From Magnetococcales bacterium (GTDB lineage Bacteria; Pseudomonadota; Magnetococcia; Magnetococcales; JADFYX01), in the NCBI GenBank assembly GCA_015232405.1, contig JADFZS010000008.1, positions 1 through 64,000 on the forward strand: a stretch of 64,000 nt of DNA. Direction: 5' to 3'. Both the position numbers and the translations under genes were made by a program. This document shows, in pieces, positions 9,064 to 15,093 of this stretch. How positions within the stretch are numbered: position 1 is the stretch's first letter; every line of letters begins with the position of its first letter. The notes beneath the pieces are model-generated. The model saw only the letters and a list, made by a program, of their open reading frames with translations. It was not told the origin of the DNA and did not search any database.

Positions 9064-9441
9064 TTATGCCGCAATAGCATTGGGGGCATCAACAAATTTC
9101 GTACTCTCTTTTGTTTTGGCTTTTTGCTTGGCTTTGTCTTTTAAACCTAACTCAAGACGTTCATCAAGCCTGGTTAATGCCCAACCTGGATCGATATTTA
9201 CTAAAGAGCATATCCAATGGAACGCACCGGTTTCCATATTGGAGGAGTAGAACCATTTTTTAAGGGAGCGGTAGTCATTGCGAAAAATAGGATCTTCTAG
9301 AATTTGCGGGTCATCCTGACGAAATCGCTCCAGAGCAACTAGATCACGAATAGCCCTTTCCATAACAGCAATCCACAACTGTGTATCATTGTTATCATAC
9401 TCTTGCTGCCCAACCAATATCGAACTCCTGCTTGTCTCCAT
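9064..9441 (-). CDS. Small conserved-looking protein of unknown function
   Basis: 125 residues, no signal peptide or membrane segment. The pattern LWIAVMERAIRDL, then SLKKWFYSS, then FHWICSLVNIDPGWALTRL, followed by a lysine-rich tail, resembles small helical proteins (about 90-130 residues) found near phage or regulatory genes in alphaproteobacteria and relatives, which end in a block of the type FxxVCxLAGxDPxxVRxRL. I recognise only the pattern, not a named family, and no function is claimed. A clear AGAGGAAAA ribosome site precedes the ATG. The gene is convergent with the kinase on its left, and an 80-base gap separates it from the CheB-like gene on its right. Confidence 0.65.
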   Translation of the reverse strand: METSRSSILVGQQEYDNNDTQLWIAVMERAIRDLVALERFRQDDPQILEDPIFRNDYRSLKKWFYSSNMETGAFHWICSLVNIDPGWALTRLDERLELGLKDKAKQKAKTKESTKFVDAPNAIAA

Positions 9442-9523: not shown

Positions 9524-10570
9524 CTATCTACTGCTGCCCAAATATGCCGCTATCTGCGCTACAGATAGATTTTGGGCCTCTGCATTGGCCTTTACAACAG
9601 CACTGGTCATTTCGTTAACCAAGCAACTCTCAGGGTCTTGCACCAATACAGTAAACCCCTCCTCGGTAAAAGCCAAGCTACCTTTTATACCATCGTCTCC
9701 ATGCCCTGAAAGAAGTACTCCAACTGGATTTTCTGCCTGTGAAGCCGCAGAAACAAAAAGTTGGTTGATGGATGGGTGTACTGTTATTCCCGGTTGAAAT
9801 ATGGTGTTGAAAACAAGTTGATTGGAACAGTTTTTTTTCAATACTCCATCGACGCTAGCTGGAATAAAAGTGATTGAATCATCCTTGATAACCTGACCAG
9901 TCACTCCTACCTTGATATTTTTACCTGTCTCCTCACTCAACTGCTCAATCAGGGGTGTGCTTACGCTATCATCCATCTGCAGGGCGACAACTATGGGAGC
10001 GTGAACATCCCCAATACTCTTCAAAAGGCTGGATAATACCCCTACTCCACCAGTTGAAACCCCTATCACAATTAGATCATAGGGTTTATGATCTGTTTTT
10101 ATACTCTCTAAACCGCTGTTATTAAGTTTTGCTACATCTAACAAATTGTTGCTTTGCTTGTAGTATGCTGGCAAACCACGACTACCCCAGTAGTGTATCT
10201 TTTCCAGAAACATCTCATGGGATTTTCCAATTTTGATTGTGTTTTGAAAAGTGGGCCAACCAAAATAATCTACGGCACCATACTCCAAAGACTTTAAAAA
10301 TCGGCTCTGTTTGTCTACATCCGATTCGCTGTGCAAAATAATAGGTAGAGGGGAGTAATCCATAACCCTCTTGATAATATCTGCAACCCCCCTATTGGCC
10401 TCCTCAATAGCGATTGTAATTAAATCGGGTTGTAGTTGTTCTATTGTCTCTATTGAAAATGAGTCGTAGCCCAAACTTGGTAGCAGTTTTATATCCGAAT
10501 CACCCACTAGGATCATACGAATAACTGCTTGTAGAAACCCCGGCTCATCTATAGGTAAAATTTTTATCAC
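9524..10570 (-). CDS. CheB-like protein with degenerate receiver and degenerate methylesterase domain
   Basis: 348 residues with the overall plan of chemotaxis methylesterase CheB: receiver-like part (1-120), linker, esterase-like part (about 163-345). True CheB removes methyl groups from chemoreceptors with a Ser-His-Asp triad and is switched on by receiver phosphorylation. Here the serine is present (S172 in GVSTGG) and the aspartate is present (D293 in GHGDDG), but the position of the catalytic histidine, QHM in CheB, reads LQM with Q198. In the receiver the phospho-acceptor of the TLDVEMP motif is A54 (TIAIEEA), and the acidic pair is IDE. The protein is therefore probably not a normal phospho-activated esterase and may bind or regulate instead. 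No che or mcp gene is in the window. Start is GTG 10570, with AAAGGTAGAG upstream. The loss of residues is read directly; loss of activity is inferred. Confidence 0.85.
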   Translation of the reverse strand: MIKILPIDEPGFLQAVIRMILVGDSDIKLLPSLGYDSFSIETIEQLQPDLITIAIEEANRGVADIIKRVMDYSPLPIILHSESDVDKQSRFLKSLEYGAVDYFGWPTFQNTIKIGKSHEMFLEKIHYWGSRGLPAYYKQSNNLLDVAKLNNSGLESIKTDHKPYDLIVIGVSTGGVGVLSSLLKSIGDVHAPIVVALQMDDSVSTPLIEQLSEETGKNIKVGVTGQVIKDDSITFIPASVDGVLKKNCSNQLVFNTIFQPGITVHPSINQLFVSAASQAENPVGVLLSGHGDDGIKGSLAFTEEGFTVLVQDPESCLVNEMTSAVVKANAEAQNLSVAQIAAYLGSSR

Positions 10571-10904
10571 TCTCTACCTTTAGCTATGAGACTCTATTTT
10601 CATGTTTGGGACTAAGCAGTATATCATCATTAAACTATCTGCAACAGCGTAAGACGCTCTATTGTTACCTCCACTCTCTGTTTTACCACTCCTCCCTTGC
10701 TCCCTATCACAGCACAATAACTGGCTATGGATAACGGGATTCATTATTTTTTGTTCCTTGGGATCATGGTTTATTAAATTTCTAAAAACTCTTCAATTAT
10801 TATAAATCGAACCAACCTGGATATTAACAACCAAAAAAAGACAATAAAGTGTATATATTGTCTGGTCTGTGTCTATGACACCAATGCAGATGTCCTATAT
10901 TCCT
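10571..10904. other. Gene-free leader region upstream of the CheB-like gene
   Basis: No gene with convincing composition. On the minus strand it is the upstream region of the CheB-like gene. It holds a 54-codon minus-strand frame (10744 to 10580) that stops just before the CheB-like ribosome site, but its composition is unlike a protein. There is also a small palindrome, GTGTC..GACAC, near 10870-10882. Confidence 0.4.
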
Positions 10905-10911
10905 GATTAGG

Positions 10912-10987
10912 CCAGAGGCTTGGCAGTCAAGTGGGGGGGGGAGTTGCCACCAAGCCTCTGGTTCGAGACACTTTAGCATTGCGTCTC
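10912..10987 (-). ncRNA. Candidate structured RNA, unit 2 of a tandem pair (poly-C loop hairpin)
   Basis: Read on the minus strand, a short stem (10987-10981 with 10971-10965, GAGACGC/GTGTCTC with one G.U) is followed by a long hairpin whose 12-bp stem is 10961-10950 with 10923-10912. The loop holds CTCCCCCCCCCA, nine C in a row. The unit repeats the organisation of the copy 98 bases to the right. The stem deviation is a G.U wobble on this strand and an A.C mismatch on the plus strand, which argues for a minus-strand RNA. C-rich hairpin loops are typical of small RNAs that bind G-rich ribosome sites, for example the tandem CcsR (cuckoo) RNAs of Rhodobacter; that parallel is an inference. A processed leader of the CheB-like mRNA is equally possible. 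Confidence 0.5.
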
Positions 10988-11009
10988 ATCACTAATAAAA
11001 ATTAATAGA

Positions 11010-11086
11010 CCAGAAACCCGGTAGCCAAGAGGGGGGGGGAGAGGCCACCGGGTTCCTGGTGCGAGACACTTAAAAAAACGTGCCTC
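11010..11086 (-). ncRNA. Candidate structured RNA, unit 1 of a tandem pair (poly-C loop hairpin)
   Basis: On the minus strand: a short stem (11086-11080 with 11069-11063, one G.U), then a long hairpin with a 17-bp stem (11059-11043 with 11026-11010, two G.U and no other mismatch) and a loop containing CTCCCCCCCCCT. The loop neighbourhood CTCC..CTTG.CT and the flanking GTGTCTCG.ACCAG are shared with the copy 98 bases further on, while the stem sequences differ (CCCGG here, GGCTTGG there). Structure and loop are kept while the stem has changed, as expected of RNA under selection. No promoter or terminator was identified with certainty. Confidence 0.5.
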
Positions 11087-11099
11087 ATTTACAACTTTT

Positions 11100-11450
11100 T
11101 CTACTACGATACTGCTTTTAAATCATTAACTTCTTCTTAAACTTAACAACTCATACTTCTGATACTATTCTACTGCAATTTACATCTTCATCCGACTACT
11201 GTACTGCTTAATTCATCTACTTCTAATACTACCTACTGCATGCACTTCTTGTTGCTTCAACTACGATACTGCTTAATTCATCTACTTCTAAGTCATACGT
11301 TTCGGTTATACCTAATGCACTTCTTGTTACTTCAACTACGATACTGCTTAATTCACCTACTTACTAAGTCATACTTCAAATACTACCTACTTACTGCATG
11401 CACTTCTTGTTACTTCAACTACGATACTGCTTAATTCATCTTGTTCAAAC
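11100..11450. repeat. Degenerate direct-repeat array, strongly G-poor on the plus strand
   Basis: The core TACTGCTTAATTCATCTACTT recurs with starts at about 11110, 11202, 11267, 11342 and 11425 (spacings 92, 65, 75, 83). The three last copies share a longer unit beginning ATGCACTTCTTGTT at 11240, 11315 and 11398. The plus strand has almost no G outside ACGAT and CTGC, so the minus strand is nearly C-free. The irregular spacing, lack of unique spacers and lack of cas genes exclude a CRISPR array. Short leucine-rich frames over it are a by-product of the repeat. From 11451 to 11734 I see nothing further. Confidence 0.7.
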
Positions 11451-11734
11451 CGATCCTAAAACAATCACACCTACAACTGCATACTTACAAATTACTGCTT
11501 GTTTTCGCTGCTTGTTGCTAATATACGTATCAGGAATCGTACCAACTTTTATGGTTATTATTTTCTTTAACAATATTAACAGATTGTAAAGATTAAGTGA
11601 TTTTTTGTGACTTTTTAAGGGGTGGAAAAAAAATTTCCGAAATAATAGGACAGGCAGACTTAATCGTCTCTTTTAATGTTTATTTTTAAATAGTTACGAG
11701 TATGCGTAAAAATTTTTTCCTATAGTGCTAAATT

Positions 11735-13512: not shown

Positions 13513-15093
13513 TCAGCTTTTATTTATTGGTAGTTGCACAGTTACCGTAGTCCCTTTATCAAGCTCTGATTCAAATGTGATGTGGCCACCATGGTTGTTT
13601 ATAATGGTATTGGAGATAGATAGTCCTAGCCCTGTTCCCCCAACATCGGTTCTGGTAGTAAAAAAAGGATCGGTCAATAGTTTCAAATCCTTTTCACATA
13701 TTCCCTTACCATCATCTGTGACACTAACCAAAACAGCATTGGTATTGCTGTCTTGTGATATTGATACTGTGACATTGCCATCTCGACTACCCAAAGCCTG
13801 TAGGGCATTGAGAATCAAATTTATAAAAACCTGCTCTAACTGTTGGGTATTTCCCAACACCATCGGTAGAGATTCAGCCGCTTCACTGGAAAAATTATTG
13901 CAATATTTTTTTATCTGGCTTTGCAGAATAGAGATTGAGTCATTTATGATGGTGGTCAGGTTTACCTCCTGATCCAACACCCCCTTATCTTGACGACTTA
14001 AATGTTTTAGATTTTGGATGATATTTTGAATCCGTAACGAGCTTTTTTTAATGCCGTCAAACAGGCGTGGCATGGTATCCAACACATCAGATATGGGGAC
14101 ACCAGCAAGGAGAAAATCCCCCTCTTCACGCCTTGCTCTCTCTAAAAATGGCACCGCATCCCCCCAAACATCGTGCAACATGGCGGTGTTGAATTGAATC
14201 GAATTATTGGGGTTGTTCACCTCATGGGCAACACCTGCTGCCAACACACCAATGGTAGCCAACTGTCCAAAACGGATACTCTGCTGCTGCAATATGACCC
14301 TCTCTTCATCAACTTGACGACGTTGGGTAATATCACGAACAATAGCTGAAAAACGTGGAGTTCCTTTTACACTCCATGTGGATAGAGATAACTCTACAGG
14401 AAAAATCACCCCTCCCTTTTTTAGCCCATGCAGCTCTTTAACACAGCTTTTTGTAACCTGGTTATCAATCTCCATACAGTGGCGCAACTCAATTTTCAAT
14501 GCCTCCCACTCTTGTTCTGGTACTAAATTTTTAACAGGCTGCCCGATGATCTCCTCTTTGGTGTAGCCAAATGTCTTATGCGCGCTATTGTTCCATACTG
14601 TAACCAAACCATTTTCATCTGTGGCTATAATGGCATCTGAAGCTGATTCACTAATGGATCGAAACTGCTCTTCACTATTCCGTAAAGCCTCCTCTGCCAC
14701 TTTACGTTTTTTATACTCCTCTGCCTCCATAAAACATCGCTCTATGGTTGGCAATAAACTGCTGAGATTATCTTTATGGACAAAATCTTTCGCTCCAGAT
14801 TTTAGGAGTGATACCGCCTCCTCTTCACCTATAGCACCGGAGACCAAAATAAATGGACTTTCCAAATCATGCTCATTGTAAATTTTTAACGCTGCCTGGG
14901 CAGAGAAAAGTGGCATTCGACAGTCAGAGATAAACAGGTCCCATCTTGTCTGGCTCAACGCTTGGACCATCTCAGGTTCAGACTCAATTCGCTGGCACTT
15001 CACATCAACATAACCTTTACGAAGTATGTGATGCAGCAATTGAAAATCTTTTTTGGAATCATCAATAATGAGAATATGGAGCTTTTTTCTCAT
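13513..15093 (-). CDS. Soluble sensor kinase REC-PAS-HisKA-HATPase
   Basis: 526 residues, no membrane segment. An N-terminal receiver (D57 in ISDCRMP), a linker helix, one PAS domain (about 150-275), a HisKA domain with the box GVAHEVNNP and an HATPase with DDGKGI and GGTGLGLS. Kinases with this H-box often drive NtrC-type regulators, and one is encoded next on the same strand. An N-terminal receiver on a kinase usually means that the kinase is itself controlled by another phosphodonor. Ribosome site GAGGAATAG precedes ATG 15093. The pairing with the downstream regulator is inferred from position and subfamily. Confidence 0.92.
   Translation of the reverse strand: MRKKLHILIIDDSKKDFQLLHHILRKGYVDVKCQRIESEPEMVQALSQTRWDLFISDCRMPLFSAQAALKIYNEHDLESPFILVSGAIGEEEAVSLLKSGAKDFVHKDNLSSLLPTIERCFMEAEEYKKRKVAEEALRNSEEQFRSISESASDAIIATDENGLVTVWNNSAHKTFGYTKEEIIGQPVKNLVPEQEWEALKIELRHCMEIDNQVTKSCVKELHGLKKGGVIFPVELSLSTWSVKGTPRFSAIVRDITQRRQVDEERVILQQQSIRFGQLATIGVLAAGVAHEVNNPNNSIQFNTAMLHDVWGDAVPFLERARREEGDFLLAGVPISDVLDTMPRLFDGIKKSSLRIQNIIQNLKHLSRQDKGVLDQEVNLTTIINDSISILQSQIKKYCNNFSSEAAESLPMVLGNTQQLEQVFINLILNALQALGSRDGNVTVSISQDSNTNAVLVSVTDDGKGICEKDLKLLTDPFFTTRTDVGGTGLGLSISNTIINNHGGHITFESELDKGTTVTVQLPINKS

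Follow-up and report, generated by a model that had tools for sequence, protein, structure and literature searches.

The window analysed here, 64,000 nucleotides of a Magnetococcales genome (G000; 5.86 Mb in 335 contigs), carries two tandem hairpin units whose minus-strand RNA structure is conserved in the order and co-occurs with a gene for an NtrC-type response regulator. We propose, with a probability of about 0.68, that the units are part of a minus-strand small RNA (sRNA) switched on by this regulator through a sigma-54-type promoter, the C-rich loops of which would pair in trans with G-rich ribosome sites. The features concerned, all on the minus strand and given in its direction, are:

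13513-15093, minus strand: histidine kinase with REC-PAS-HisKA-HATPase architecture (Pfam), the presumed partner of the regulator, conserved in the related locus L016 (415-2016)
11735-13156, minus strand: NtrC-type response regulator with REC, Sigma54_activat and Fis HTH domains (Pfam), the gene most constantly linked with the RNA
11623-11639, minus strand: palindrome CGGAAATTTTTTTTCCA, TGGAAAA-N3-TTTTCCA-like, a candidate upstream activator site for the regulator
11527-11545, minus strand: predicted -24/-12 (sigma-54-like) promoter TTGGTACGATTCCTGATAC, an element type found upstream of the RNA in 19 of 20 arrays
11164-11449, minus strand: imperfect tandem repeats with 65-83 nt spacing (GATGAATTAAGCAGTATCGTAGTTGAAG...)
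11008-11086, minus strand: 5' unit, with short hairpin 11063-11086, long hairpin 11009-11060 and C9 loop 11031-11039 (sequence, fold, alignments)
10910-10987, minus strand: 3' unit, with short hairpin 10965-10987, long hairpin 10912-10961 and C9 loop 10933-10941 (sequence, fold, alignments)
10833-10866, minus strand: weak terminator-like hairpin AGACAATA...TATTGTCT followed by T7 (sequence and fold)
9524-10570, minus strand: CheB-like gene, the downstream neighbour, with a degenerate receiver half and a CheB methylesterase domain (Pfam)

As an earlier, sequence-only reading of this DNA had described, the two units lie 98 bases apart, and each consists of a short stem (7 bp) and a long stem (15-18 bp) with a loop of exactly nine C on the minus strand. 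One reads GAGGCACGTTTTTTTAAGTGTCTCGC-ACCAGGAACCCGGTGGCC-TCT-C9-TCTT-GGCTACCGGGTTTCTGGT and the other GAGACGCAATGCTAAAGTGTCTCGA-ACCAGAGGCTTGGTGGC-AACT-C9-ACTTGA-CTGCCAAGCCTCTGG, and in the unit at 10910-10987 a single A bulges from the long stem. That reading had counted one G.U per short stem and two in the long stem of one unit: the former count stands, but both long stems have two G.U pairs. Its argument that such deviations point to the minus strand extends to the family, with 58 G.U against 13 A.C cells on that strand in 47 related units. Folding 201 nt of the minus strand gives -87.2 kcal/mol (z = -7.0), which none of 200 shuffles equals, while the plus strand of the same 201 nt reaches only z = -1.6. 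The C-run is found on the second hairpin only, the loops of the first, short hairpins being variable and not C-runs. G000 carries only these two units.

The observation that the stems differ between the copies while the loop stays constant also holds across the 47 units, in which the stems vary with pairing kept and the C-run is conserved. In their alignment 96.7% of the cells are paired, two-sided compensatory changes are found in 22 of the 23 stem pairs, and the covariation score is 0.58 (shuffles, 0.24; slid partners, no more than 0.14); the larger alignments, this one included, were fitted to a covariance model, which favours high pairing. A six-unit alignment agrees, with two-sided changes in 19 of the 23 pairs. 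The main conserved primary sequence is the C-run itself, which is 7-10 residues long in 35 of the 47 units and 5 in another seven. Many of the hairpins are followed by U-runs on the same strand as the units. A coding role is unlikely, because C-run length and unit spacing vary regardless of frame.

We then consider the spread of these units. A blastn search over relatives returned one clear homologue, in G001, at 82% identity; the nearest named record to the window is the Magnetococcales MAG contig JADGBW010000047 (L016). There both units are again flanked by the NtrC-type regulator and the CheB-like gene, the rest of the spacer aligning poorly, and the units of G000 and G001 differ by changes on both sides of stem pairs with the loops staying C9 or C10. 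The same spacer in G003 and G015, where the CheB-like protein is 44% and 34% identical, contains a single long hairpin whose loop is C8 or C9. The expectation that the loop would be conserved in relatives is thus borne out at the orthologous place in G001/L016, G003 and G015.

A covariance search of related genomes, which the sequence-only reading had suggested as a check, recovered a whole family of arrays. Model R1, of three units taken from four units of two genomes, retrieves the units at the corresponding position in G003 and G015, with E-values of 0.01 and 2e-4 in 137 kb. Model R2, of six units, was run on 48 genomes of the order and finds arrays of up to six units in genomes outside its training, with per-genome E-values of 1e-7 to 6e-4. 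Using model R3, of 47 units, RNA arrays were found in 20 of the 48 Magnetococcales genomes, as against one weak match in about 300 other genomes of the phylum; R3 was trained on most of the units that it finds, so its E-values are not independent, while those of R2 for non-training genomes are. Most of the genomes are fragmented MAGs, the E-values are rough and loci within a genus are not independent. The number of units per array varies from one to six.

In seven f7/g7 genomes (G038, G024, G030, G020, G043, G010 and G039) the gene immediately upstream of the arrays is a regulator sharing 62-64% identity with that of the window; in G045 the distance to the regulator orthologue is about 4 kb. 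As the model knows nothing of genes, the placement next to the regulator is an independent confirmation of the R2 matches. In the four g13 genomes inspected in detail (G016, G026, G031 and G037) the array stands alone between unrelated genes (NMT1-like, glycosyltransferase and oxaloacetate decarboxylase beta) with the regulator orthologue elsewhere; no C-loop array is present downstream of the regulator orthologue in G016, G022, G026, G029, G031 and G037. G003 has extra C-loop hairpins away from the regulator, at L087 6116-6296 (G003:C81), L086 6730-6805 and L089 10282-10532; one such pair has a promoter-like element of its own and lies before a homologue (59% identical) of the window's 125-aa gene (9064-9441).

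Across the 48 genomes the RNA and the regulator are found together almost without exception. Regulator orthologues of at least 59% identity (range 59-93%, the genome of the window included) occur in 20 genomes; the RNA is likewise present in 20, and 19 have both (Fisher p ~3e-11, without phylogeny correction). The single orthologue without the RNA, in G035, begins 52 bases from a contig end, and its downstream region is missing. The regulator adjoins the RNA in 11 genomes. The simplest reading, a supported inference by analogy with CbrB and CrcZ (PMC8871633), would be that the NtrC-type regulator controls the RNA; in g13, where the two genes are far apart, such control rests on co-occurrence and the promoter motif.

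A promoter of the corresponding type is strongly suggested by the sequence upstream of the arrays. The sigma-54-like element precedes 19 of the 20, most commonly in the form TTGGYRCG-N4-YTGATATAT, at about 30 to 460 nt from the first unit (combined p ~2e-16, from simple consensus scores and first-order shuffles, the loci not being independent). Its GG and TG are spaced as in sigma-54 -24/-12 elements and too close for sigma-70. At -12 it has mostly TGA rather than the usual TGC, which we take as a local variant because the same form is found downstream of a paralogous NtrC-type regulator before an ORF. Allowing at most one mismatch, the pattern occurs once in the 5.86 Mb of G000, at 11545-11527, with none for the reversed control, and once in G001, at the RNA; genome-wide it is absent from G014 and G040, which lack the RNA. 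The L089 array of G003 has no promoter-like element. About half of the 20 arrays also have a TGGAAAA-N3-TTTTCCA-like site further upstream than the promoter (combined p ~3e-6, from the same kind of scores and shuffles, with loci again not independent).

At the other end, the last long C-loop hairpin of the g13 arrays is followed by T8-T11, and therefore resembles a terminator, at which a discrete RNA of roughly 170-250 nt would end. In the window genome a possible 3' end is the hairpin at 10866-10833, which is A+T-rich and was not listed by a pattern scan. Between promoter and hairpins, in the presumed 5' part of the transcript, sit the tandem repeats at 11164-11449, which are not seen at the L016 locus.

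These observations favour the first of two proposals of the sequence-only reading, namely a small RNA: its minus-strand product would probably act through the C-rich loops. Under the mechanism that we envisage, the histidine kinase would phosphorylate the regulator and thereby switch on the RNA, transcription most likely starting at the sigma-54-type promoter just downstream of the regulator gene. The units would be the body of the sRNA gene, with one to six of them in tandem across the family, each composed of a short hairpin and then a long one whose loop mostly has 5-10 C. The strong stems would keep the C-run single-stranded, so that it might pair in trans with target mRNAs at their G-rich ribosome-binding regions, blocking or destabilising these mRNAs, and several units would offer several docking sites or a higher dose. 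We infer this pairing by analogy: C-rich apical loops on stable stems reach G-rich ribosome sites in 6C RNA (PMC9569102 and references there) and RNAIII (PMC2837412), C-rich loops of sX13 pair with G-rich RBS regions (PMC3771888), and in B11 the terminator hairpin itself carries the C-rich loop that binds G tracks beside ribosome sites (PMC12395582). Throughout the 48 Magnetococcales genomes GGGGGG located 3-11 nt before an ATG outnumbers the reversed pattern by a factor of 1.2 to 7. The median ratio is 3.6 in genomes with the RNA against 2.7 in those without (p = 0.04, uncorrected for relatedness); G-tracts being only slightly commoner in carriers, these counts do not establish the pairing idea.

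Repeated loops might also act on a protein. The array would then bind and sequester an RNA-binding protein, much as CrcZ titrates Hfq/Crc and CsrB titrates CsrA, and the number of units would set its capacity; we regard this as possible but rather unlikely. A unit number of one to six with a constant loop fits such a sponge, as does the layout of a two-component NtrC regulator followed by a sigma-54 sRNA, known from cbrAB-crcZ (PMC8871633). Each of the 11 genomes tested has a CsrA gene, and hairpins in the 5' parts of the f7 and G015 arrays, GAGACAAGGAUGUCUC for example, match the SELEX consensus for CsrA, RUACARGGAUGU (PMC7652899). However, this GGA hairpin is single and is not seen in the window, G001 or G003. 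RNAs of the CsrB/RsmZ type have multiple GGA hairpin loops; here, by eye, one conserved GGA hairpin is present in f7 and G015 only, and the repeated loops are C-runs, which CsrA does not recognise. We know of no bacterial protein specific for C-runs. The consensus-matching hairpin, of a form like GAGACARGGAUGUCUC, lies shortly after the promoter at L074-L080, L082 and L038, in f7 genomes and G015. A broader and equally tentative idea is that sigma-54-activated arrays of equivalent poly-C loops on their own covarying stems, with unit number tuning dosage, serve as a sink for G-rich ribosome sites or for a C-run-binding protein and in some genera add a 5' CsrA-type site, which would make them a new riboregulator class; if true, one two-component signal would feed both C-loop regulation and the Csr system.

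The second proposal of the sequence-only reading was a leader element of the CheB gene, with the hairpins controlling translation from its 5' UTR. The order of regulator, hairpins and CheB is common to G000, G001, G003 and G015. In G001 about 70 nt separate the end of the last unit from the start of CheB, and another hairpin, TATGAGGC...GCCTCATA, is located at the ribosome site. The coupling to CheB goes no further than these four genomes, however, with no such gene after the array in most carriers. In one genus, g13, the array is free-standing, with a promoter-like element of its own and a T-run after the C-loop hairpin at its end; in the window itself, the units are separated from the gene by a 340-nt gap with the terminator-like hairpin in between. 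We therefore consider a leader role very improbable. The CheB-like gene does look degenerate, as that reading had called it: Pfam gives no match to its receiver half, and by eye the region of the catalytic His is VALQM. The protein is 68% conserved in L016, and is therefore probably maintained, if probably non-catalytic. That the units are a DNA-level element (a REP/BIME palindrome, transposon end or protein-binding site) is least likely of all, for, despite the tandem inverted repeats and the copies at several places in G003, the stems differ between copies with pairing kept through compensatory changes and G.U (strand bias 58 to 13), the units of G000 occur only at the window locus, and the promoter-like element and U-runs lie on the same strand. 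REP/BIME palindromes in particular would be expected in many near-identical dispersed copies, and G000 has only two units, with differing stems.

Returning to the sRNA reading, we compared the family with known RNAs. At the gathering level Rfam reports only a tRNA in the window and 11 related loci, and direct blastn of phages gave chance matches only. The nearest Rfam model is the actinobacterial 6C RNA (RF01066), scoring 23.7 bits in L075 and 18.3 bits in L084, about half of the required 47 bits; at E up to 10 it gives no match in the window. An end-to-end alignment of the model to one unit (L075 6151-6223) is obtained, and both RNAs have two consecutive hairpins with a C-run loop. In 6C, however, both hairpins have C-rich loops, as against the second only here, and a sigma-A promoter takes the place of the tandem arrays, sigma-54-like promoter and NtrC-type linkage of the present family. 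6C is described as specific to Actinobacteria (PMC9569102), while the C-loop family is found in Magnetococcales, the R3 search having covered the order and about 300 other genomes of the phylum. By analogy, the C-loop RNA probably works like a 6C-type RNA without being a member. The terminator-like structure of some C-loop hairpins recalls the terminator hairpin of B11 (PMC12395582).

Other parallels concern the regulatory layout. CrcZ titrates Hfq/Crc through A-rich motifs and is without C-loop hairpins, and the array has no Rfam match to it. As with CrcZ/CrcY, the proposed sRNA gene lies just downstream of a kinase/NtrC-type regulator pair, has a predicted sigma-54-type promoter and occurs in extra copies: in Pseudomonadaceae these RNAs are next to cbrAB, are transcribed from a sigma-54 promoter directly activated by the regulator and have further copies elsewhere (PMC8871633). 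Two features of CrcZ/Qrr-type sRNAs recur here, namely the NtrC-family linkage (adjacent in 11 and co-occurring in 19 of 20 genomes) and the -24/-12 promoter (19 of 20 arrays, the -12 C mostly replaced by A). Qrr RNAs fold differently, as single Hfq-type sRNAs that have no C-run loops, and again the array has no Rfam match. The likeness is one of an NtrC-family regulator and a sigma-54-type promoter serving a multi-copy sRNA, several copies in Vibrio being driven by the NtrC-family LuxO with sigma-54 (PMC10162802, PMC8043402).

The remaining parallels concern the loops. CcsR RNAs have C-rich loops and, like the present units, come in tandem. The comparison with them drawn by the sequence-only reading holds for a functional analogue at most: CcsR1-4 (cuckoo RNAs) of Rhodobacter are cut by RNase E from one transcript shared with a DUF1127 gene under an RpoHI/RpoHII promoter (PMC10253847), while the promoter here is of another type and no DUF1127 was found among the Pfam-scanned flanking genes. 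sX13 of Xanthomonas, which is Hfq-independent, and RNAIII of Staphylococcus likewise present C-rich apical loops on stable stems, pairing with G-rich motifs near translation starts (PMC3771888, PMC2837412). They differ in lacking tandem two-hairpin units, in their promoters and, for sX13, in having 4-5 C as against 7-10 here; no sequence relation was found.

The C-loop array hence appears to be an sRNA family without an Rfam entry, found so far only in Magnetococcales, an order for which we found no described sRNA in the literature, and its covariation is very clear. It joins two separate themes, the C-rich-loop sRNAs that silence G-rich ribosome sites and the sRNAs switched on by a neighbouring NtrC-type regulator, and its natural series of one to six equivalent loops makes dosage and multi-site pairing directly testable.

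The promoter motif is also seen at paralogous loci. In L166 and L168 (G039:C150:16268-16286 and G020:C80:12301-12319) it is found between a paralogous NtrC-type regulator, about 200 bp upstream of it, and an ORF starting MNT.NLSLFGKTK. As this ORF stands in place of hairpins, we rejected a second regulator-sRNA pair in G020 and G039; the position of the motif suggests that paralogues of the regulator may commonly drive their downstream neighbour. In L124 of G012, the promoter-like TTGGCACAATTGTTGATAG lies about 300 nt downstream of a 56%-identical regulator and is followed by G+C-rich inverted repeats, which do not match the C-loop family and are possibly another regulator-linked RNA.
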